Positions 6,508 to 23,107 of a stretch of 23,107 nucleotides of DNA are shown in pieces. The position numbers and the translations under genes are program-made. Numbering within the stretch: the first letter of the stretch is position 1; every line of letters begins with the position of its first letter. A model generated the notes under the pieces. It was not told where the DNA came from. It did no database searches and was given only the letters and a program-made list of their open reading frames with translations. The stretch is from Elusimicrobiota bacterium (GTDB lineage: Bacteria; CG03; SLGR01; PWQF01): the NCBI GenBank assembly GCA_003557485.1, contig PWOI01000147.1, forward strand, positions 1-23,107, given 5' to 3'.

Positions 6508-6635
6508 AATATCTTCACAAAAATCAAAGCCAAATATCAAATATTTTCACAAAATACAAGGTAAAAAAAATAATAATTTCACAAAAAATCAATGTTTAAT
6601 TTGAAAAATTTCACAAATTTTTGTAAAATCAAAGT
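6508..6635 (+). repeat. Four 32-bp direct-repeat units abutting an ATPase start codon
   Basis: Four copies of a TTCACAAA core occur with their C at 6516, 6548, 6580 and 6612, exactly 32 bases apart. Cut into 32-mers from 6508, each unit begins AA(T/A)A(T/A) and continues into TTCACAAA; the first three also share an A-rich, CAA-containing middle. The fourth unit ends at 6635, directly before the ATG at 6636, and carries an inverted partner (TTTTTGTAAAA). The spacing is about three helical turns, as for proteins bound on one face of DNA. An operator array for autoregulation is the simplest reading; it is too short and AT-rich to be a CRISPR array. Confidence 0.8.
6601..6629 (+). promoter_or_regulatory. 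Predicted sigma70 promoter, leaderless, within the 32-bp array
   Basis: TTGAAA (6601-6606) and TAAAAT (6624-6629) are separated by 17 bases. The -10 ends six bases before the ATG at 6636, so transcription would begin at or next to the start codon. No ribosome site precedes the ATG, which agrees with a leaderless message. Confidence 0.6.
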
Positions 6636-7964
6636 ATGAAAAGAGATATATATACATATTTACTCAACTGGAAAAAAGAAACAGGCAGAAAACCGTTGAT
6701 TTTAAAGGGTGCCCGCCAGGTTGGAAAAACATATATACTTAAAGAATTTGGGAGGAGAGAGTATAGGAAAACGGCATATTTCGATTTTGAAAAAGATCCG
6801 GCATTAGGAGAAATTTTTAAAGGAGATTTGTCTCCGGATAAAATAGTTGAAAAATTATCGATAGCGCTGGAAGAAAAGATTGAAAAAAATGAAACATTAA
6901 TAATATTTGATGAAATTCAGGAATGTCCGGCCGCGCTGACAAGCTTAAAATATTTTTGCGATGAGGCTCCCGAATTTAATATTATAGCTTCCGGCTCTCT
7001 GCTTGGTATTAAATTAGGTCAGAAAAAATCTTTTCCTGTTGGAAAAGTTAAGCTTAAAACTTTGCATCCAATGTCTTTTAAGGAGTTTCTTTCCGGAATA
7101 GGCAAGGATAGATTGCGAGAGTTGATAAGGGGCAAGGAAGACACCGTAGAAATAAATAAAAAGTTTCATGCTGAATTGATAGATTATCTTAAAATTTATT
7201 TTTTTATCGGAGGCATGCCTGAAGCTGTTTATAGATATAGTGAAGATAAAAATGATTTTAATAGAATACGTCAGATACAAAAAGATATTTTAACCGGTTA
7301 TGAAGATGATTTTGGGAAACATTCATCAAAAAATGATGCTTTAAAGATTAAAGAAATATGGGAAACTATTCCTAAAGAACTGGCTAAAGAAAATAAGAAA
7401 TTTATGATTTCGCATATAAATAAAAACGCGCGTTATAGAGACTACTGGCATGCGATACAATGGCTTGAAAATTCCGGTTACATTTATCTGATAAAAAGAA
7501 TAAGCCGTCCAAGTTTACCATTGGTCAATTATACTGAAAAGAATGTATTTAAACTGTTTTTTTTAGATACAGGCTTACTTGGAGCTATGCTGAATCTTTC
7601 CCCGAGAGTTATTATTGAAGGCAGTAAGCTTTTTAAATGGTATAACGGTGTTTTTACAGAGAACTATGTTACCCAGCAACTGATTGCCGAAGGTATAGAA
7701 AATATTTATTATTGGGCGAGCGGCGCAACTGCGGAGGTTGATTTTATTGTTGAGGAAGGAACAAACATATATCCGCTGGAGGTTAAGTCCGGTGTAATTC
7801 GAAAATCCATAAGTTTAGAAACCTATAATAATAAATATAATCCGGATAAATTATGCAGGTCTTCAATATCAAATTTCAGTTCCAGTGGCAAGTATCGGAA
7901 TTTCCCTTTATATGCGGTTAGTTTATTCCCGTCTTTACTTGAAAAAATATCAGCCGTTAAGTGA
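6636..7964 (+). CDS. AAA_14/DUF4143 ATPase (copy 1)
   Basis: A 442-residue protein with the two-domain plan of the AAA_14-DUF4143 family. The N-terminal P-loop ATPase has Walker A GARQVGKT (25-32), Walker B LIIFDEIQE (about 88-96) and a sensor-like ASGSLLG. The middle has FFIGGMPEAV and the DUF4143 segment FFLDTGLLGAML. The C-terminal AEVDFIVEE...LEVKSG has the D and ExK spacing of a PD-(D/E)xK nuclease fold. The biochemical role of the family is not established. The gene lies between cysC and cysD, has its own predicted promoter inside a 32-bp repeat array, and is more AT-rich than its neighbours, so it looks inserted. It is complete, and it has no AlbA_2 gene beside it. Confidence 0.9.
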   Translation: MKRDIYTYLLNWKKETGRKPLILKGARQVGKTYILKEFGRREYRKTAYFDFEKDPALGEIFKGDLSPDKIVEKLSIALEEKIEKNETLIIFDEIQECPAALTSLKYFCDEAPEFNIIASGSLLGIKLGQKKSFPVGKVKLKTLHPMSFKEFLSGIGKDRLRELIRGKEDTVEINKKFHAELIDYLKIYFFIGGMPEAVYRYSEDKNDFNRIRQIQKDILTGYEDDFGKHSSKNDALKIKEIWETIPKELAKENKKFMISHINKNARYRDYWHAIQWLENSGYIYLIKRISRPSLPLVNYTEKNVFKLFFLDTGLLGAMLNLSPRVIIEGSKLFKWYNGVFTENYVTQQLIAEGIENIYYWASGATAEVDFIVEEGTNIYPLEVKSGVIRKSISLETYNNKYNPDKLCRSSISNFSSSGKYRNFPLYAVSLFPSLLEKISAVK

Positions 7965-10281: not shown

Positions 10282-10557
10282 ATGACTGAATTATTGATGA
10301 AATCACAAATTGTAAAAGATAAAGACATTTGCGGAGGCCAGCCAAGAATTAAAGGCACACGCATAAAAGTTCAGCATATTGCCCTGGAATTTGAGTATTT
10401 AGGTTGGTCTCCGGATAGAATATGCGATGAACATCCGGGATTGAAATTGTCCGACGTACATGCAGGGATTGCTTATTATTATGAGAATAAAAAGGAAATT
10501 GATAAAAAAATTCAACAGGACAAGAACTTCGCAAGTAAGCTTGAAAAGGTGAAATAA
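10282..10557 (+). CDS. DUF433 family putative antitoxin
   Basis: A 91-residue DUF433 protein. The family signature is clear: ICGGQPRIKGTRIKVQHIA, then the helix-turn-helix-like part EYLGWSPDRICDEHPGLKLS and DVHAGIAYYYENK. DUF433 proteins are widely found as antitoxins beside PIN-like toxins, and the next gene encodes such a protein. Its TAA overlaps the next ATG by one base (TAATG), so the pair is translationally coupled. It should act in the cytoplasm by binding its partner and probably its own promoter. The pair lies between two copies of the cysN tail, so it appears to be a recent arrival. Confidence 0.85.
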   Translation: MTELLMKSQIVKDKDICGGQPRIKGTRIKVQHIALEFEYLGWSPDRICDEHPGLKLSDVHAGIAYYYENKKEIDKKIQQDKNFASKLEKVK

Positions 10558-10886
10558 TGCCTATTTCGCTGCTATGCGATGAGCACATCCCTTTATCGAT
10601 TGTCAGAGGTTTATGCCGAAGAGGAATAAATGCTGTCAGCATTAAGAAACTGGATTTACTTTCCGAAGAAGATAAAAAGATAATAGATAAAGCTAAAGAA
10701 GAAGAAAAAACTATCTACACGAGGGATGCGGATTTTTTGAGGCTTCATAACGAGGGGTTTCCGCATAGAGGTATTATTTATAATCATCCGACAAAATATT
10801 CTATAGGAGACACGATCAAAAAATTAGAGGTTATGTGCCAGACATTATCTGAAGAAGAGATGAAAGGTAAAGTAAAGTTTTTATAA
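10557..10886 (+). CDS. DUF5615 PIN-like putative toxin
   Basis: A 109-residue DUF5615 (PIN-like, Mut7-C related) protein. The N-terminal LLCDEHIPLSIVRGL carries the first acidic residues of the PIN-like active site. The middle has KTIYTRDADFLRLHNEG, with the conserved T-R-D-x-D-F motif, followed by HRGIIYNHPTKYSIGD. It pairs with the upstream DUF433 gene, with a one-base overlap. The likely role is an RNA-cleaving toxin, by analogy with VapC. The length is normal and no damage is visible. Confidence 0.85.
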   Translation: MPISLLCDEHIPLSIVRGLCRRGINAVSIKKLDLLSEEDKKIIDKAKEEEKTIYTRDADFLRLHNEGFPHRGIIYNHPTKYSIGDTIKKLEVMCQTLSEEEMKGKVKFL

Positions 10887-11050: not shown

Positions 11051-11356
11051 ATGAGCTCAAAAAGAGAAAAGCAGATATTAAATAATATAGTAGAAATACT
11101 TAAAACGCGTTTTAATCCCGAAAAGATAATTCTTTTCGGGTCAAGAGCAAAAAAGGAAGAGAAGTCAAGATCGGATTTTGATATTGCCTTGAATGAAAAA
11201 AAGCCTTCTATAGGAGAAATCCGGAAATTAAAACGAGAGATAGAACAGGTATCAGGACTTTATAAAGTAGACGTAATTTTTTTAAAATCAGTTGAGAAGG
11301 ATTTCAGGGATATTATCCTTAAAACAGGGCGGATAATTTATGATAAGAGAAAATGA
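11051..11356 (+). CDS. MNT-type nucleotidyltransferase (putative antitoxin)
   Basis: A 101-residue minimal nucleotidyltransferase. The motif ILFGSRAKKEEKSRSDFDIAL has the GSxx...SDxDxx active-site layout of the DNA polymerase beta-like fold, and VDVIFL near residue 75 supplies the third acidic strand. Related MNT proteins neutralise HEPN toxins by adding AMP to them. The reading frame overlaps the next gene by 17 bases. It starts 27 bases after the stop of the cysN remnant, with no obvious ribosome site. The partner belongs to the HI0074 substrate-binding family, so this pair is a different subfamily from the one at 17587-18230. Confidence 0.85.
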   Translation: MSSKREKQILNNIVEILKTRFNPEKIILFGSRAKKEEKSRSDFDIALNEKKPSIGEIRKLKREIEQVSGLYKVDVIFLKSVEKDFRDIILKTGRIIYDKRK

Positions 11357-11723
11357 ATACGCGGTTAAAAAACTTGATGATGCTTTCAAACAGCTTAAAA
11401 GCGGAGTGGAGAAAGCCCGGAACGAACTTGAAAAAGACGGGGTTAATCAAAGATTTGAATTTGCCTTTGAGCTATTCTGGAAAGCCCTTAAAATATTCCT
11501 TGAGCATAAAGGAGTAACAGCTGAAACCCCCAGGGATTGTTTACAGGAATCATTCAGAATAGGGGTACTGGACGATGAGGATACTTTTCTTGATATGCGT
11601 GAGGACAGGAATTTAATGTCTCATATATATGATAAAGAAACTTCCGAAAAAATACTGGATAGAATAAAAAACAGATATTTAAATGCTATCGGAAACACGT
11701 TAGCTAAGCTAAAAGAGTCTTAG
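11340..11723 (+). CDS. HI0074-family HEPN/nucleotidyltransferase substrate-binding protein (putative toxin)
   Basis: A 127-residue helical protein of the HI0074 (NTase substrate-binding) branch of the HEPN superfamily. It has the family block GVNQRFEFAFELFWKALK and near the C-terminus REDRNLMSHIY, which supplies R-x4-H-x-Y. In HepT-type HEPN toxins that motif holds the RNase residues and the tyrosine AMPylated by the MNT partner. It overlaps the MNT gene by 17 bases, consistent with a coupled toxin-antitoxin pair. It appears complete. The toxin role is inferred from the family; HI0074 proteins were first described as substrate-binding partners. Confidence 0.85.
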   Translation: MIRENEYAVKKLDDAFKQLKSGVEKARNELEKDGVNQRFEFAFELFWKALKIFLEHKGVTAETPRDCLQESFRIGVLDDEDTFLDMREDRNLMSHIYDKETSEKILDRIKNRYLNAIGNTLAKLKES

Positions 11724-11798: not shown

Positions 11799-11827
11799 TT
11801 GACAGACAGAAATTAATGTTATAAAAT
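11799..11827 (+). promoter_or_regulatory. Predicted strong sigma70 promoter upstream of ATPase copy 2
   Basis: TTGACA (11799-11804) and TAAAAT (11822-11827) are separated by 17 bases. The same two hexamers with the same spacing occur upstream of ATPase copy 3. Here the start codon is 66 bases downstream rather than immediately after, and no ribosome site is visible. No periodic repeat array was found at this copy. Confidence 0.6.
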
Positions 11828-11893
11828 GGCACCAATTAACAACAGAAAATGTAATATAACGGCACATAGTTATATATAAAATTATTGGTTCAA

Positions 11894-13240
11894 ATGTTTA
11901 ACAGGGACATAAATCAGTATTTAGCAAACTGGAAAGAGAGAAAAAACAGGAAACCGCTTGTTTTAAGAGGGGCAAGGCAAGTGGGAAAAACCTCCTCTGT
12001 CCTGCTGTTCGGAAGAGAACATTTTGAAGATACAATTCATCTCAACCTTGAAAAAGAGGAACACCGAAGACTCTTCAGGGAACAAGTTTCATTAAAAGAC
12101 TTTTTAAAAATTATTGAAATTGAATTTAGGAAAAAGGTGATTCCCGGTAACACTCTTCTTTTTATAGATGAAATTCAGAACAGTCCGCCTTTAATCAATC
12201 TACTGAGGTTTTTCAGGGAAGATATGCCTGAAGTTCATATTGTTGCGGCAGGCTCTCTTCTTGAAGTGAAGATAGAAAAAGAAGGATTTTCCTTTCCTGT
12301 CGGCAGGGTGGAATTTGCGTATATGTATCCGGTAAATTATTTTGAATACCTTTCCGCAAAGGGGGAGGAGAGACTCCGCGGCTTTCTTGAAAATATTTCC
12401 CTGAATGAATCTATACCGGATGGTATTCATAAAAAAGCCTTAAAAGAGTTTTATGAATATACAATGATAGGCGGGATGCCCGAGGCTGTAAAGACTTATG
12501 TGGAAGACGGTAATTTGAACGGACTGCAAAACATTTATTCGTCTCTTTTTACGGGTTACTGCGAAGATGTTTATAAGTATTCTTCTTATGCCCGGGCTAA
12601 ATACTTAAGTTTTGTCATAGAAACAGCGCCGCTCTTTGCCGGAAGTACGGTTTCATATAACAAGTTCGGCGGCTCTGATTTCGGCAGCAGGGAAATGAGC
12701 AGAGCTTTTGATACTCTTGAAAAAACTATGATTCTGCATCAGCTGGATGCGACCAAGTCAAAATTAATGCCCCTGGTTCCCCAGAGGAGACGTCCAAAGA
12801 AAATTTTTTTCCTGGATGTGGGACTGGTTAACTACCGTATGAATATAATAAATGAATACCTGAACTTGAAGGAACTGAGTGGTTTTTACAGGGGACGCAT
12901 AGCAGAGCAGGTAGTCGCCCAGAATATTATTTCCCGGTTTCAGGATACTAAGCCGGAACTCTTTTACTGGGCCAAGGATAAAAGCAGCGGGTCGGCGGAA
13001 GTTGATTTCTGTCTCATCCACAGCGGCAAAATACTGGGGATTGAAGTTAAGTCAGGAAAAGCGGGAAAACTGAGATCGCTTTTCAGTTTTGCAGATGAAG
13101 TAGAAAATTCCCTTATCATAAGACTCTATTCAGGAATGTTAAAGATTGAAAAAGTTGAATATTCCGGAAGAAGCTACCGGCTTGTTTCGATTCCGTTTTA
13201 CCTTGCCCCCGGAATGTTCTCTTTTATTAGTTCAGAATGA
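11894..13240 (+). CDS. AAA_14/DUF4143 ATPase (copy 2)
   Basis: From the ATG at 11894 the product is 448 residues; a TTG at 11885 in the same frame would add three. It shares the architecture of copy 1: Walker A GARQVGKT (26-33), Walker B LLFIDEIQNSP, AAGSLLEV, FPVGRVEF, MIGGMPEAV, FFLDVGLVNYRM, and a C-terminal AEVDFCLIHSGKILGIEVKS with D and ExK of a nuclease-like fold. Its stop overlaps, as ATGA, the start of a decayed AlbA_2 gene, so the two once formed a coupled pair. It is clearly diverged from copy 1 and is not a recent duplicate. The molecular role of the family is not established. Confidence 0.9.
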   Translation: MFNRDINQYLANWKERKNRKPLVLRGARQVGKTSSVLLFGREHFEDTIHLNLEKEEHRRLFREQVSLKDFLKIIEIEFRKKVIPGNTLLFIDEIQNSPPLINLLRFFREDMPEVHIVAAGSLLEVKIEKEGFSFPVGRVEFAYMYPVNYFEYLSAKGEERLRGFLENISLNESIPDGIHKKALKEFYEYTMIGGMPEAVKTYVEDGNLNGLQNIYSSLFTGYCEDVYKYSSYARAKYLSFVIETAPLFAGSTVSYNKFGGSDFGSREMSRAFDTLEKTMILHQLDATKSKLMPLVPQRRRPKKIFFLDVGLVNYRMNIINEYLNLKELSGFYRGRIAEQVVAQNIISRFQDTKPELFYWAKDKSSGSAEVDFCLIHSGKILGIEVKSGKAGKLRSLFSFADEVENSLIIRLYSGMLKIEKVEYSGRSYRLVSIPFYLAPGMFSFISSE

Positions 13241-14032
13241 ATGCTGAAATTTTAAAGTATATTATAAAAAAAGGGGAGGGTTTAAACGTTGAGTTTAAGA
13301 AGTGCTCAACTGATTTAAGCGAGAGCGTTTATGAAACAGTATGCGCATTTTTAAACAGAAACGGCGGGTCAGTAATATTGACAGGTATGATGACCGTGAT
13401 GATATAAGGACGAATCTTATTGAAAGTATGAGAGACTTATGGCATTCGGAAAGAAACACTTGCCTGATAAATTTCATCTTGAAGAAGGGCAAAGGATAAG
13501 TCTCAGGGATCATATTCTAAGAGAGGTAGCTGGAAATATACTTATTCACCGGGAGTATCTTAATCCATTCCCGGCCAAATTTATTATCGAAAAAGAGCAA
13601 ATACATACGGAAAACAGCAACAGACCCCACGGGTACGGTTTAATAAACCCCGATAATTTCTCCCCGTACCCCAAAAACCCGAACATGGCAAAAGTCTTTA
13701 AGGCAACAGGCCGCGCAGATGAGCTCGGGTCCGGTGTCAGAAATCTTTTTAAGTACTGTAAGATTTATGGCGGAGTAAGTAGCGGAGTAAGTAGCGGAGT
13801 AAGTAGCGGAGTAAGTGGCGGAGTAAGTGGCGGAGTAAGTGGCGGAGTAAGTGAGTTATATAGATATATAAAAGAAAACCCTGGCTTAAAGGTGCCACAA
13901 CTTTCGGAAGCTCTTGAAAAACCCAAAAGAACATTGGAACGCTGGATTAAAAAGTTGCGGGAAGAAGAGAAAGTCAGATTTAAAGGCAGTGCAAAAAAAG
14001 GCGGTTATTATATTATTGAGAAAAAACGCTAA
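13237..14032 (+). pseudogene. AlbA_2/RecG-like transcriptional-regulator gene with internal deletion and frameshift
   Basis: The ATG at 13237 overlaps the ATPase stop. The first 50 codons give an AlbA_2 start (GLNVEFKKC, ETVCAFLNRNGGSVILTG). The frame then meets a TAA at 13405-13407. Next to it, in another frame, YDDRDDIRTNLIESMRDL is followed after a second shift at about 13437 by MAFGKKHLPDKF, the HATPase_c_4-like block (LREVAGNILIHREYL, GRADELGSGVRNLFKY), a 12-bp repeat tract, and a winged helix (PQLSEALEKPKRTLERWIKK). Compared with the intact relative at 21862, about 195 residues are missing between the two glycines near residue 43 and the RE of the second block. The 3' part from 13439 is still open to 14032. 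Confidence 0.85.
13772..13855 (+). repeat. Seven tandem 12-bp units encoding GVSx repeats
   Basis: Seven units of GGA-GTA-AGT plus a fourth codon lie in frame. The fourth codon is AGC in units 1-3, GGC in 4-6 and GAG in 7, giving GVSS x3, GVSG x3 and GVSE. The tract joins the HATPase_c_4-like part to the C-terminal winged helix. The block-wise change of the fourth codon shows that units expanded by copying of neighbours. Confidence 0.95.
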
Positions 14033-14042
14033 TGGCTACCTG

Positions 14043-14101
14043 CATTTCGTAAAATGATTTGACAAAATGTATATCATTTCGTAAAATAACTTTACAAAAT
14101 G
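14043..14101 (+). repeat. Two 27-bp repeats, 32-bp period, overlapping an ATPase start codon
   Basis: Units at 14043-14069 and 14075-14101 match at 24 of 27 positions, with a five-base spacer and therefore a 32-bp period, the same as at ATPase copy 1. Each unit contains an inverted pair, ATTTCGTAAAAT and a TTTgACAAAAT- or TTTACAAAAT-type site. The second unit includes the ATG (14099-14101) of the gene. The TTTxACAAAA core resembles that of the array at 6508-6635. Confidence 0.8.
14059..14087 (+). promoter_or_regulatory. Predicted sigma70 promoter embedded in the repeat pair, near-leaderless
   Basis: TTGACA (14059-14064) lies in the first unit and TAAAAT (14082-14087) in the second, with a 17-base spacer. 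The start codon at 14099 is 11 bases after the -10, leaving a leader of only about five bases and no room for a ribosome site. A protein bound to either repeat would cover the promoter. Confidence 0.65.
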
Positions 14102-15298
14102 AATGATTTAAATATACAAAATCTGCTGGAGTTTAACCGCCTGGCCCGCGAAGACGGAAAGAAATATAAGAAGAAAAGATTTATATTCCAAAATATTTCC
14201 GAGTCCGGCGGTGAACATTTCACAGGGATAGCGGGTCCCAGAGGTGTCGGTAAAACAGTCATATTGAAACAGCTGTCTCTGAATATTCCGGAGAGTTTCT
14301 ATATTTCCCTGGATACATTCAGAGGAGATCTCTTTGAGCTTGTCAAAAAATTAAGCCGTGACCTGGGGATAAAAACTTTTCTCCTGGATGAAATACATTT
14401 TAATCCCGGCTATGATGAAGCGCTGAAAAAAATCTATGATTTTCTGGATCTCCGGGTAATATTTACTTCTTCGGTTTCTCTTTCAATGTTTAACTCTTCC
14501 CGTGATCTTTCCAGACGGGTTCTTATTGAAAAGCTGTACCCTTTTTCGTTTAGGGAATTTCTCTTTTTCACAGAAGACCTGAAAATTAAGGCTCTTGGTT
14601 TTGAAGATATTTTAAAGAGGCGGTGGGATAAAAAAGCGCTTTCGTATGCGGATATGTTTGATAATTATCTCACGGGCGGGAATATGCCTTTTTCTCTTGA
14701 AGAACCGCAACCCCTGAAAATCCTGGAAAATATACTTGATGCCGTGGTTAAAAAAGATATACCCGCTCTGGCGAGTATAACGGTTGACGAGATTGAAATA
14801 ATTAAACAGGTGGTTGAATTCATAGGTAAATCAGAAGTTGACGGGATAAATTACAGCTCAATATCAAATAATCTCAAGATAACGAAATATAAGGCCAAAC
14901 AATACATTTCCCTGCTTGAGGAGGCATTTATTCTTATGAGGGTTATGCCTGCCGGAACCAATGTAAAGAAAGAGCCCAAGGTGCTGATGGCTTTGCCTTA
15001 CAGGCTCTTATTCAGAGACTACAAAGCCTCTCTTGGGGGGTTAAGAGAAGATTTTTTTGCTGAAACTATTTTCTCTGCAGGTAAAAAGATCAAGTACTTA
15101 AAGACAACAAGGGGCTCGAAGACACCCGATTACCTGATAGAGGATAACAAAGGAAAGATGATTATTGAAATCGGAGGGAAAGGAAAAGGCAGGGAGCAGT
15201 TTAAGGGCATAAAAGAAAAAAAGAAACTCATATTTGCCCACACCCTGGAGACGGAAGGGATAAAAAGACCTCTCTTTATGGCGGGTTTGCTGCAATAA
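14099..15298 (+). CDS. AAA-family ATPase with DUF4143-like C-terminus (copy 3)
   Basis: A 399-residue ATPase more distant from copies 1 and 2. It has Walker A GPRGVGKT (46-53), Walker B TFLLDEIHFNPG, the shared YPFSFREFLFF block and NYLTGGNMPFSL, equivalent to the IGGMPEAV segment. A winged-helix-like stretch follows (YSSISNNLKITKYKAKQYIS). The C-terminal part has LREDFFAETIF and TPDYLIEDNKGKMIIEIGGK. The acidic residues of the PD-(D/E)xK pattern are there, but the ExK lysine position is glycine (EIG), so nuclease activity is doubtful. The start codon lies within a 27-bp operator-like repeat. Its upstream neighbour is the AlbA_2 pseudogene. Function unknown. Confidence 0.8.
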   Translation: MNDLNIQNLLEFNRLAREDGKKYKKKRFIFQNISESGGEHFTGIAGPRGVGKTVILKQLSLNIPESFYISLDTFRGDLFELVKKLSRDLGIKTFLLDEIHFNPGYDEALKKIYDFLDLRVIFTSSVSLSMFNSSRDLSRRVLIEKLYPFSFREFLFFTEDLKIKALGFEDILKRRWDKKALSYADMFDNYLTGGNMPFSLEEPQPLKILENILDAVVKKDIPALASITVDEIEIIKQVVEFIGKSEVDGINYSSISNNLKITKYKAKQYISLLEEAFILMRVMPAGTNVKKEPKVLMALPYRLLFRDYKASLGGLREDFFAETIFSAGKKIKYLKTTRGSKTPDYLIEDNKGKMIIEIGGKGKGREQFKGIKEKKKLIFAHTLETEGIKRPLFMAGLLQ

Positions 15299-17586: not shown

Positions 17587-17895
17587 ATGATGGATGCAAA
17601 AACTAAGAGAGAAATAGAGAATATTAAAGAAAAAACAATCCCCGTTCTATCTAAGTATAAAATAAAGAATGCGGGCATATTCGGTTCAATTGTCAGGGGA
17701 AATTTTACCCCGGAGAGCGACGTTGATATTATCGTTGAAATTCCTGAAGGCAGCAGGATAAGTCTCTTTGATCTGGCGGGTATTGAAATGGAGCTTGAAG
17801 AAGCGCTGAAAAGAAAAGTAGATCTGCTGACATATAACTCTATACATCATTTATTGAAAGAGAGAATACTGCGCGAAGAGGTAAAAATAGCATGA
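17587..17895 (+). CDS. mntA: MntA-type antitoxin nucleotidyltransferase
   Basis: A 102-residue minimal nucleotidyltransferase; the second Met (17590) has a better distance to the GAGGA ribosome site at 17579-17583. The active-site pattern is AGIFGSIVRGNFTPESDVDI followed by KRKVDLLTY, giving the GSxxRG and SDxD residues of the MntA family. MntA transfers AMP from ATP to the tyrosine of its HepT partner and blocks the toxin's RNase activity. The stop overlaps the hepT start as ATGA. The pair stands alone between two glycosyltransferase genes and is more AT-rich than either, so it looks inserted. Confidence 0.9.
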   Translation: MMDAKTKREIENIKEKTIPVLSKYKIKNAGIFGSIVRGNFTPESDVDIIVEIPEGSRISLFDLAGIEMELEEALKRKVDLLTYNSIHHLLKERILREEVKIA

Positions 17896-18230
17896 AAGAT
17901 AATATGATTTTTGTTAAGCATATTATGGAAAGTATAAATTTCATAGAACAATTCACGGAAGGGTTTACTGAAAAAGAATTTTTAAAAGATTTTAAAACGC
18001 AGGCTGCGGTAATAGAAATGATTCAGATTATAGGCGAAGCGAGTAAAAATATATCAGAAGACTTCAGAAGTAAATATCCTGATATTCCCTGGAGACAGAT
18101 GGCAAGGACCCGGGATAAACTTATACACGGCTATTTTTCAGTAGATTTAAACCTTACGTGGGATGTAATTAGAAAAGATATTCCGGATCTGAAAGAAAAA
18201 ATCTCAAAAATCATTAACGAAAACAAATAA
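17892..18230 (+). CDS. hepT: HepT-type HEPN toxin (DUF86)
   Basis: A 112-residue all-helical HEPN protein of the DUF86 family. The diagnostic motif RDKLIHGYF near the C-terminus supplies R-x4-H-x-Y, in which R and H form the RNase site and the tyrosine is the AMPylation target of MntA. WRQMARTRD just before it and VIEMIQIIGEASKNI in the middle are also typical. It overlaps mntA by four bases. The start of a related gene persists as a scrap at 15338-15372, so this toxin type has been gained more than once, or shuffled, within the locus. It appears intact. Confidence 0.9.
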   Translation: MKDNMIFVKHIMESINFIEQFTEGFTEKEFLKDFKTQAAVIEMIQIIGEASKNISEDFRSKYPDIPWRQMARTRDKLIHGYFSVDLNLTWDVIRKDIPDLKEKISKIINENK

Positions 18231-19258: not shown

Positions 19259-19589
19259 TCGCGGGGAACCACATAGTTTTCGGCCATTATTTTATCTACC
19301 CTTAAATAAATAAATTTTTATTTCACTTAAATCTCTCGGCTCCCATAGATAAATTAGGGAGAACTGGTTTTTAAATATTGTAGAGACTTCTAACAGTCTA
19401 TAAAAGGCACGATTTTAAAATAAAGGAGTAGCATTGAAAAAGGGTAGGGTTTTTGCTATACAAAAGATAAAAAAATAAGGAAGCATTTTAATTTTTAATG
19501 CTTTATGCGTGTAAAAAGACTGCTTAGAAATGTGAAAAAAGACTACTATACAGCGTGTAAAACGAATACTTTATAACAAAAGAGCATTT
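19240..19589 (+). other. 350-bp gap before ATPase copy 4: hairpin, tiny ORF, repeats
   Basis: After the left 30-bp repeat there is an AT-rich stretch without a gene of useful length. A TTG with a good ribosome site (AAAGGAG at 19422-19428) opens a 14-codon frame (19434-19478) that I cannot identify; it may be the start of a lost gene. A hairpin with arms AAGCATT and AATGCTT lies at 19481-19503. The 23-bp repeat array follows at 19509-19577. TTGACA at 19248-19253 with CATAGT 18 bases downstream could still act as a promoter. Confidence 0.5.
19509..19577 (+). repeat. Three imperfect 23-bp direct repeats before ATPase copy 4
   Basis: Units begin at 19509, 19532 and 19555 and share GTG(T/A)AAAA, then GA.T.CT.TA. 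The array ends 12 bases before the ATG at 19590. A TATAAC at 19572-19577 could be a -10 box, without a convincing -35. The period is 23 bp rather than 32, and the sequence differs from the arrays at copies 1 and 3, but the position just before the start codon is the same. Confidence 0.6.
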
Positions 19590-20864
19590 ATGAAAAAATA
19601 CATTTATAGAATATTGGATGACGAATTGAAAGAATTATTCCTCCAACTGCCTGCAATTTCAATTGAGGGAGCAAAGGGAGTAGGTAAAACTGAAACAGCA
19701 AAGCGTCAGGCAGAAACTATATACGAACTGGATGATGCCTCTGTTTATGAATTATATAAGGCGGACCCGAAAAGAATTATAGAAGGGAATAAACCTATAT
19801 TAATAGATGAATGGCAGAAAGTACCGCAAACGTGGGATATAATACGCAGAGCAGTTGATACAGATTCTTCGCCCCGGCAATTTATCCTTGCAGGGTCTGC
19901 AACTCCTTCCCGGGAACCTACCCATTCGGGTGCCGGGCGAATCATCACTCTTCGAATGCGTCCTTTCTCATTGGCAGAACGGGGGATTGAAACCCCTTCA
20001 GTAAGTTTAAAAGATTTTATTATGGGAAAAGTATCTGATTGTACTGGAGAAACCGATATAACCATAAAAGATTATACAAAAGAGATTTTAAAATCAGGAT
20101 TTCCGGGTATACGACTATATGAAGGACGCGCTTTAAGGGAGCATCTAAATAGTTATATTGCTCGAATTGTTGATAAAGATTTTAAACAGATGGGGAGAAA
20201 TATTCGAAAGCCGCATTCGCTCAAACGTTGGATGACAGCCTATGCGGCAGCCACTGCTACTACAGCGACTTATGAAACAATACGGGACGCTGCTACAGCT
20301 GGTCAGGCGGATAAACCATCTAAAGATACTACCCGGCCATATCGAGAAATACTAGAAAAACTTTGGATTGTAGAGCAACAGCCCGCCTGGTTGCCAACCC
20401 GAAATCAATTTTCCAGATTGTCAAAACCACCAAAACATCATCTTGTCGATCCTGCGTTGGCGGCACGTTTATTGGGCGTTGGATTTAATGCTCTTCTCAA
20501 TGGTGAAGTGCCTGATCCTGTAATTCCACGGAACGGGACATTGCTGGGGCATTTATTTGAATCACTAGTGACCTTGAGCATACGGACTTACGCGCAGCCT
20601 GCCGAGGCAGAAGTAAAACATTTACGTACCGCTGAAGGCCGTCACGAAGTTGATATAATTTTGGAACGAGACGACCATAAAATTATAGCTATTGAGGTTA
20701 AACTCGGGCGAACAGTTGAAGATGATGATGTCAAACATTTGCTCTGGCTAAAAGAAAAAATGGGTGATGACTTGATAGACGCGCTTATTATTCATACAGG
20801 TCCCCGAGCTTATCGTCGAAAAGATGGTATAGCAGTCGTGCCGGCTGTTCTTCTAGGACCCTGA
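19590..20864 (+). CDS. AAA_14/DUF4143 ATPase (copy 4)
   Basis: A 424-residue protein of the AAA_14-DUF4143 family, of a different branch from copies 1-3. Motifs: Walker A GAKGVGKT (27-34), Walker B PILIDEWQKVP, sensor-like FILAGSATPS, RMRPFSLAERG, KSGFPGIRL, the DUF4143 part HHLVDPALAARLLGV, and a C-terminal HEVDIILERDDHKIIAIEVK with D and ExK of a nuclease-like fold. It follows a 23-bp repeat array, lacks a clear ribosome site, and is followed by the 3' end of an AlbA_2-type gene. Codon use and GC differ from the flanking GT2 and MarR genes. The cellular role of the family is unknown. Confidence 0.9.
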   Translation: MKKYIYRILDDELKELFLQLPAISIEGAKGVGKTETAKRQAETIYELDDASVYELYKADPKRIIEGNKPILIDEWQKVPQTWDIIRRAVDTDSSPRQFILAGSATPSREPTHSGAGRIITLRMRPFSLAERGIETPSVSLKDFIMGKVSDCTGETDITIKDYTKEILKSGFPGIRLYEGRALREHLNSYIARIVDKDFKQMGRNIRKPHSLKRWMTAYAAATATTATYETIRDAATAGQADKPSKDTTRPYREILEKLWIVEQQPAWLPTRNQFSRLSKPPKHHLVDPALAARLLGVGFNALLNGEVPDPVIPRNGTLLGHLFESLVTLSIRTYAQPAEAEVKHLRTAEGRHEVDIILERDDHKIIAIEVKLGRTVEDDDVKHLLWLKEKMGDDLIDALIIHTGPRAYRRKDGIAVVPAVLLGP

Positions 20865-21861: not shown

Positions 21862-23107
21862 ATGAACAGAAAAGAATTAATAACAAAACTTGAAGATATA
21901 GAATGGGAAGACTTTGAAGTAAAGCAGGCAAAATCCGCTCTGCCGAAAAGCAGTTGGGAAACTGTAAGCGCTTTTGCCAACACAGCCGGAGGCTGGCTTG
22001 TTTTCGGGGTTAAGAAAAATGGAAAAGATTATGCTGTAACGGGAATTAATAACCCCGAAAAAATCCTGAACGATTTTATGACGGTTCTGAGAGGTGATAA
22101 ATTTAATAAAAAAATACCGGTAAAGTGTAAAAAGTACAGGATTGAAGGCAAGGATGTCCTGGGTTTTTATGTCCCGTCAGTATCTTCAAAAAACAAGCCC
22201 GTTTATTTTAATTCCCAGAGTAATACGTTTATAAGAACCGGCAGCGGTGATCAGCGGGCCACAAAAGAAGAAATAGATTCTATGTACCGGATCTCTTCTT
22301 TTGACAGTAAGGACAGAGAAGTTACGGGTTTAACCCTTGATGACCTTAACGGGGAAACAATTGCTGATTACAGGAGGTATTTGGAGATTATTGAATCCGG
22401 ACACAGATACAATAAACTGTCTATTGAAGATATGCTTTCCAAATTGGAAATTCTCAAGGGAAAAAACATCACTGTCGGCGGACTGCTTGTCTTCGGGAGA
22501 GAAGAAAGTATAAGCCGGATTATTCCTGATTTCAGGATAGATTACCTGGAAATAATGGGCAGGTCGTATTCGGATGCTCCTGAAAGGTATAGCTACAGGC
22601 TTCCTCAGGAGGAAAATCTCTTCAGCTACTATTTCAGTATACTGGAAAGACTGATAAAAAAAATAGATATTCCCTTTAAGCTTAAAGGAACCTTCAGGGA
22701 CGAGAACCCTCCCCAGTTGATTGCGGCCCGCGAAGCGCTTGTGAATCTTCTTATGCACAGCGATTATTTCAGCGGCGCCAAACCCAGAATAAGAGCTTTT
22801 ATAGACAGAATAGAGTTCTTTAACCCCGGCGCGCTCCCCAAACCTCTGAAATATATAATAAGTGAGGATTTCTCTCTTCCCAGGAATCAGGTTATAGCCA
22901 AAACGTTCAGGGTAATAAGACTTTCCGAGAATATAGGTTCTGGATTTCATAAGATGATTAACGGATGGGAAGAATATTACAAAACAGAGCCGGAAGTTAC
23001 CGAAGACATTGACCACTACAAAATCATATTTTATTTTAATGGGAAAGGTTCCCAGAAAAGTTCCCAGAAAAGTTCCCAGAAAAGTTCCCAGAAAAGTTCC
23101 CAGAAAA
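21862..23107 (+). CDS. AlbA_2/HATPase_c_4 RecG-like putative transcriptional regulator (cut by window end)
   Basis: The frame is open from the ATG at 21862 to the window end (415 codons). The N-terminal AlbA_2 domain shows EWEDFEVKQAKS and ETVSAFANTAGGWLVFGVKK (about 14-52), with GINNPEKI next. A middle region (about 155-275) includes ITVGGLLVFGRE. The HATPase_c_4-like part has AAREALVNLLMHSDYF (288-303), FIDRIEFFNPGALPKP and LSENIGSGFHKMI (354-366). A repeat of SSQK begins at about residue 397, and a winged helix should follow outside the window. COG2865 members are often labelled RecG-like helicases or regulators, but their function is not established. It is the only undamaged member of three here, and no ribosome site is evident. 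Confidence 0.9.
   Translation, partial: MNRKELITKLEDIEWEDFEVKQAKSALPKSSWETVSAFANTAGGWLVFGVKKNGKDYAVTGINNPEKILNDFMTVLRGDKFNKKIPVKCKKYRIEGKDVLGFYVPSVSSKNKPVYFNSQSNTFIRTGSGDQRATKEEIDSMYRISSFDSKDREVTGLTLDDLNGETIADYRRYLEIIESGHRYNKLSIEDMLSKLEILKGKNITVGGLLVFGREESISRIIPDFRIDYLEIMGRSYSDAPERYSYRLPQEENLFSYYFSILERLIKKIDIPFKLKGTFRDENPPQLIAAREALVNLLMHSDYFSGAKPRIRAFIDRIEFFNPGALPKPLKYIISEDFSLPRNQVIAKTFRVIRLSENIGSGFHKMINGWEEYYKTEPEVTEDIDHYKIIFYFNGKGSQKSSQKSSQKSSQKSSQK
23047..23106 (+). repeat. Five tandem 12-bp units encoding SSQK, running off the window
   Basis: Units of AGT-TCC-CAG-AAA repeat in frame; the first begins GGT. Units 2-5 are identical to the base, so expansion is recent. The tract sits between the HATPase_c_4-like part and the expected winged helix, the same place as the GVSx repeat of the pseudogene at 13237-14032. 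The window ends within it, so the full copy number is unknown. Confidence 0.95.

Follow-up and report, generated by a model that had tools for sequence, protein, structure and literature searches.

How a bacterial gene for an uncharacterised ATPase comes to have its promoter and start codon built into a tandem repeat, and what might read that repeat, are the questions raised by one locus in a 23,107-nucleotide stretch of an Elusimicrobiota contig (the window). The gene belongs to the AAA_14/DUF4143 ATPases, a very common and uncharacterised group that is suspected of a role in antiviral defence; DUF4143 is itself nearly absent from the open literature. The window encodes four such proteins, copies 1 to 4, all on the forward strand, and each contains an AAA_14 and a DUF4143 domain above the Pfam cut-offs.

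Results

A tandem array carries the promoter and start codon of ATPase copy 3

ATPase copy 3 (14099..15298, 399 aa, ATG at 14099-14101) is preceded by two 27-bp units, at 14043..14069 and 14075..14101, that start 32 bp apart and are identical at 24 of 27 positions, as the first-pass annotation of this DNA had described. Its placement of the promoter within the repeat was likewise accurate: the -35 box (TTGACA, 14059..14064) lies in unit 1, the -10 box (TAAAAT, 14082..14087) lies in unit 2 across a 17-bp spacer and 11 bp 5' of the ATG, a leaderless-type spacing, and the last 3 bp of unit 2 are the start codon. In line with the inverted pair attributed to each unit, 22 of 27 positions in either unit are self-complementary, making each a near-palindrome. 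Across lags of 12 to 70, every one of 3,000 dinucleotide shuffles fell short of this region's repeat score of 30.5, and a search of the 2.07-Mb genome allowing up to three mismatches returned no further site for the unit.

The one close orthologue found for copy 3, from the same genus and 74% identical, has the same two-unit array, again ending at the ATG. DNA homology between the two loci is confined to window positions 14041 to 15285, running from 2 bp before the array to just short of the stop codon, and the upstream neighbour gene differs between them. Judged from this comparison, array and ORF are the sole conserved block, and the array is inherited with the gene. Directly 5' of the array in the window lies an AlbA_2 gene remnant (13276-14032), a region that contains a 12-bp tandem tract at 13768-13853; a second AlbA_2 gene, at 21862, likewise ends in a 12-bp tract (23043-23107).

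Other DUF4143 genes of the genome have arrays of their own

Arrays also precede the other three ATPase genes of the window. Upstream of copy 1 (6636..7964), TTCACAAA-type sites at 6514, 6546, 6578 and 6610 form an array (6514..6617) with a period of exactly 32 bp, whose repeat score was matched by none of 2,000 shuffles; the promoter (6601..6629) pairs TTGAAA (6601-6606) with TAAAAT (6624-6629) across 17 bp and stands 6 bp 5' of the ATG. Copy 2 (11885..13240) has 18-bp units at 11815 and 11848 (array 11815..11865, period 33) that overlap a promoter composed of TTGACA (11799-11804) and TAAAAT (11822-11827). Copy 4 (19590..20864) follows an array at 19507..19571 in which GCGTGTAAAA units lie 46 bp apart, a period given as 23 by a tandem-repeat program. 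Elsewhere in the window, small paired ORFs at 10282-10886, 11051-11723 and 17587-18230 appear, by eye only, to be toxin-antitoxin or nucleotidyltransferase/HEPN-like.

The first-pass annotation had drawn attention to the arrays of copies 1 and 3 as being identical in period and similar in core despite a distant relationship between the two ATPases. Both arrays do have a period of exactly 32 bp, and the proteins are only 26% identical; the likeness of the cores is marginal, in that the best match scores 14 where shuffles average 10.5 (p = 0.03). The annotation had also held that the idea of a common scheme would fall if no other DUF4143 gene of the genome had a 32-bp array. The draft genome contains eight DUF4143 genes, four of them within the window, and significant direct repeats lie upstream of six: copies 1 and 3 and a gene on contig C134 have a 32-bp period, copy 2 has one of 33 bp, and copy 4 and a gene on contig C83 have one of 46 bp. 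The six arrays differ in sequence (TTCACAAAA; CATTTCGTAAAAT...; TGCGGAATTCTC; AATGTtATAaAAtGGCAC; GCGTGTAAAA; TTGCAAA).

A narrow range of periods recurs across the family

A survey of 169 distinct AAA_14/DUF4143 genes, in which the 150 bp upstream were scored for direct repeats at lags of 12-70 against dinucleotide shuffles (cut-off z > 2), revealed significant repeats in 66, with 38 of these at lags 31-34. The best lag was 32 in 23 genes, 33 in eight, 31 in four and 34 in three; the rest were scattered, with minor groups at 22/23, 36 and 46, and about 60% of this broad sample had no significant direct repeat upstream. The mean score was 9.2 at lag 32, as compared with about 6.1 at other lags. 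Because z-scores were computed from 30-40 shuffles per gene and the first in-frame start codon, such that single weak cases (z 2-3) are untrustworthy, it is the lag histogram that carries weight. Control regions gave few repeats of this spacing: 6 of 179 were significant inside the same genes (one at lag 32), 21 of 160 further upstream (four at 31-34) and 17 of 117 before other genes in the loci (one at 31-34). The 38 positives fall into at least 22 clusters at 40% identity and so do not represent one inherited array; a binomial significance for them is overstated, in that it treats genes as independent. Periods of 23 or 46 bp instead of 32 occur at the DUF4143 genes L001, L005, L065, L153 and L178, including pairs of about 60% identity.

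The same spacing is found in greater density among relatives of copy 1. A scan of genome contigs yielded 80 homologues at 42-57% identity, from Aminicenantes, Elusimicrobia, Omnitrophota, Bacteroidales, Bacilli, Clostridia, Desulfocapsa and other hosts, of which 60 had significant repeats; lags were 32 (40 genes), 33 (11) and 64/65 (7), placing 58 of the 80 at 32/33 or 64/65 bp, a count that leaves out three lags of exactly 31 or 14. The mean score of the clade at lag 32 was 19.5, versus about 5-7, and three units could be fitted in 38 of 59 profiled arrays, with a small bonus for three units built into the fit. Arrays at 33 or 66 bp also precede relatives carried on plasmids of cultured Bacteroides, Parabacteroides and Segatella copri; the copy 1 relative on the plasmid of S. 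copri DSM 18205 has three 33-bp units, and one in Bacteroides cellulosilyticus likewise bears an array. A conserved partner gene was considered and rejected, as no neighbour is kept in more than 12 of the 80 loci. With 32/33-bp arrays at three other DUF4143 genes of the genome (copies 1 and 2 and the gene on contig C134) and at many relatives across phyla, the earlier suggestion that a regulatory scheme travels with this family holds.

Two other families from overlapping genome sets displayed no array peak: one of 28 genes was significant for PF04326 (AlbA_2), not at 32, and one of 25 for PF09820 (AAA-ATPase_like). The sister family PF01637 (ATPase_2) has a 15-bp period of upstream direct repeats in 10 of 27 genes (L282, L284, L287, L347, L350, L363 and others), with sequences that differ by gene. 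Given that PF01637 has a period of its own, array period looks like a property of protein architecture.

The modelled ATPase resembles an origin-binding protein

An AlphaFold2 model of copy 3, confident at a pLDDT of 89, contains a winged helix at residues 229-297 (14783..14989), which we propose as the putative reader of the array, and a PD-(D/E)XK-type nuclease domain at residues 311-398 (15029..15292). A Foldseek search with this model returned Cdc6/Orc1 on origin DNA as its best match, and VIA-align ranked the archaeal ATPases PABY2304 and SSO1545, together with CED-4, at the top (Z about 16); a sequence search of the PDB found no relative. The Pfam scan returned only AAA_14 and DUF4143, and no WYL domain. 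Inspection of the nuclease active site revealed that both copy 3 and its orthologue have G359 in place of the lysine and K341 in place of the glutamate, and that an intact D ... ExK motif is absent; the lysine is kept in 44 of 54 relatives, including 39 of 39 in the copy 1 clade. Loss of both the lysine and the conserved glutamate suggests that the nuclease of copy 3 and its orthologue may be inactive. Copies 1, 2 and 4 match the PDC-S01 profiles of PADLOC end to end, with E-values down to 1e-166; the best match of copy 3 covers residues 39-291 only (1.5e-26). The passages of PMC12988326 that deal with PDC-S01 describe it as a very abundant ATPase fused to a PD-(D/E)XK domain and as the fourth most common defence system or candidate in prokaryotes, as yet unvalidated, with validation of most such candidates described as pending.

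The resemblance of an AAA+ protein with a winged helix to Cdc6/Orc1 on origin DNA raises the prospect that the ATPase assembles on the array as on an iteron or origin, or as on a recognition site that lets the element move, with transcription affected only secondarily. Such a site would fit the helical phasing of the tandem units, the presence of homologues on plasmids and the inheritance of array and ORF as a unit. The units, however, lie only 5' of the gene, over the promoter: in a scan of 38 loci of the copy 1 clade, none occurred within 250 bp behind it, a result on which mobile-element ends were also rejected. Most carriers examined, moreover, are chromosomal contigs, and each genome has several unrelated copies. 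We therefore regard an origin or movement site as unlikely.

Array sequence follows the gene rather than the host

The first-pass annotation had spoken of an operator logic shared between loci. For the operators themselves this did not hold: geometry is common, whereas each gene, along with its close homologues, has a sequence of its own, and some members depart even from the geometry, with periods of 22/23 or 46 bp. A single DNA motif common to the family was accordingly rejected. Array-bearing paralogues of one genome have no motif in common (52 pairs, mean excess -0.26, equal to that of unrelated pairs). Between genomes, pairs of at least 50% identity have motifs that are alike on average (10 pairs, p = 0.003), with four or five of those 10 showing little or no likeness and some pairs of 54-61% identity having dissimilar motifs. 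Within the copy 1 clade, motif groups could be recognised for Bacilli (TTRCAAAARTGTGATA), for Elusimicrobia plus Aminicenantes (TTCACGTTTTTGG) and, at 33 bp, for Prevotellaceae (TTCGTGCAAATAAATG) and other Bacteroidales (GTCGTCAGAAAAAATG).

These patterns bear on whether a host-encoded regulator, such as a global repressor or silencer, binds the array in place of the ATPase. Arrays overlap promoters in the manner of host operators, and motifs are common to homologues from related hosts (Bacilli, Bacteroidales), as such a regulator would allow. A host factor would nevertheless predict the reverse of the overall pattern, since motifs go with homologues in different genomes and not with paralogues in the same one, indicating that the reader follows the gene. 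The motif core TCACGTTTT recurs in both Aminicenantes and Elusimicrobia, and the uniqueness of the copy 3 unit in its genome likewise argues against a global factor. A host regulator as reader thus appears improbable.

Motif likeness correlates with winged-helix identity in partial Mantel tests on consensus motifs; when motifs are scored by profile, the correlation is as good for the AAA part as for the winged helix, and neither partial correlation keeps its significance once the set is dereplicated most strictly. The attempt to pin specificity on the winged helix in this way was consequently abandoned, the signal being suggestive with consensus motifs and not robust with profiles. Group-specific residues were not enriched in the recognition helix.

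Arrays overlap predicted promoters, some of them close to the start codon

As expected for an autorepressor, the repeats lie over the promoter of their own gene. Good sigma70 matches overlap the array in 23 of 28 cases in the broad set and 21 of 25 in the copy 1 clade, where promoters and starts are consensus matches as opposed to mapped starts. In 36 of 170 family genes, as against 3 of 117 control genes, a -10 box stands 4-12 bp 5' of the start codon, a proximity that suggests leaderless mRNAs for this part of the family. Dyads are enriched upstream in the broad set (45% versus 11% of control genes, p = 3e-9), whereas the copy 1 clade shows no such enrichment, from which it follows that array units may be either dyads or single sites.

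The dyad enrichment could also be taken to mean that the units work at the RNA level, by forming an attenuator or a structured leader. Both the -35 and the -10 box, however, fall within the array, and in many genes 5-11 bp separate the end of the -10 box from the start codon, such that most of the array would not be transcribed; an RNA-level role is accordingly very unlikely. Last, although the regions are AT-rich and slippage could copy a promoter segment, AT-rich chance or a neutral tandem duplication of the promoter is scarcely credible in view of the shuffle result for copy 3, a period histogram with one narrow period in at least 22 independent protein clusters of unrelated sequences, and the lack of a 32-bp peak in other gene families.

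Discussion

The fixed spacing of these arrays, combined with sequences that differ from gene to gene, points to each gene being switched by the protein it encodes. We think it probable that the repeat is a cis-encoded, gene-private operator array over the ATPase promoter, read, as the likeliest candidate, by the protein that the gene encodes, and serving autorepression. The reader would be the gene's own AAA+/STAND-like ATPase, with its winged helix and PD-(D/E)XK domain, occupying two to three units on the same face of the DNA, at intervals of three helical turns. So placed, the ATPase would block RNA polymerase; autorepression is the natural reading because the operator covers its own promoter. 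Expression would be released once the protein was engaged elsewhere, for example by invading DNA.

A broader proposal can be offered more tentatively. Each family member may regulate itself in a sequence-specific manner through an operator code that is private to it. In such a code, protein architecture would set the spacing (32/33 bp, 22/23 bp in some members, 15 bp in PF01637), and sequence would diversify so that many copies per genome can coexist without cross-talk. The array would then be the resting place of a STAND/ORC-like oligomer, and lost occupancy would trigger expression. Some genomes of about 2 Mb hold dozens of DUF4143 genes (34 copies in G058, 19 in G053), and private operators suggest how so many paralogues can coexist. 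A private phased operator also constitutes a predicted DNA target for each protein, making binding, oligomer geometry and regulation directly testable, and the array would be of use in annotating start codons and in finding family members.

Several known systems bear comparison with these arrays. The iterons of plasmid initiators are about 22 bp and belong to origins. For both iteron-binding initiators and the archaeal Orc1/Cdc6 proteins with their origin boxes, phased repeats adjoin the gene of a DNA-binding ATPase or winged-helix protein, an arrangement that we propose here too; the units described above differ in lying on the promoter of a solitary gene. RptR represses the promoter of a phage defence island by binding three direct repeats, which are located upstream of the RptR gene and overlap the promoter (PMC12255303). 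Like the present arrays, these are direct repeats over the promoter of the regulator's gene, but RptR is a dedicated small repressor acting on adjoining 9-bp repeats with a 6-bp palindrome, TAGCTA, conserved across bacteria, whereas here the ATPase is the only encoded product, and the array has a 32-bp period and a gene-private sequence. The BrxR regulators of defence islands, which contain a WYL domain, offer a second parallel in that a winged-helix protein binds inverted repeats upstream of its own gene (PMC9122601), as we propose for the ATPase; BrxR is encoded by a separate regulator gene, and its inverted repeat has 11-bp arms and a 5-bp spacer, with no fixed 32-bp tandem period. Together, RptR and BrxR show that direct or inverted repeats at the promoters of defence loci serve to repress those loci, but by way of dedicated regulators. 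We found no report in the open literature of upstream repeats or arrays at DUF4143 or PDC-S01 genes, and the passages on the PDC-S01 candidates of PADLOC, which belong to the same protein family, do not mention an operator array (PMC12988326). Autoregulatory operator arrays are thus already known; what would be new is a 32-bp, gene-private version that is widespread in a large uncharacterised family.
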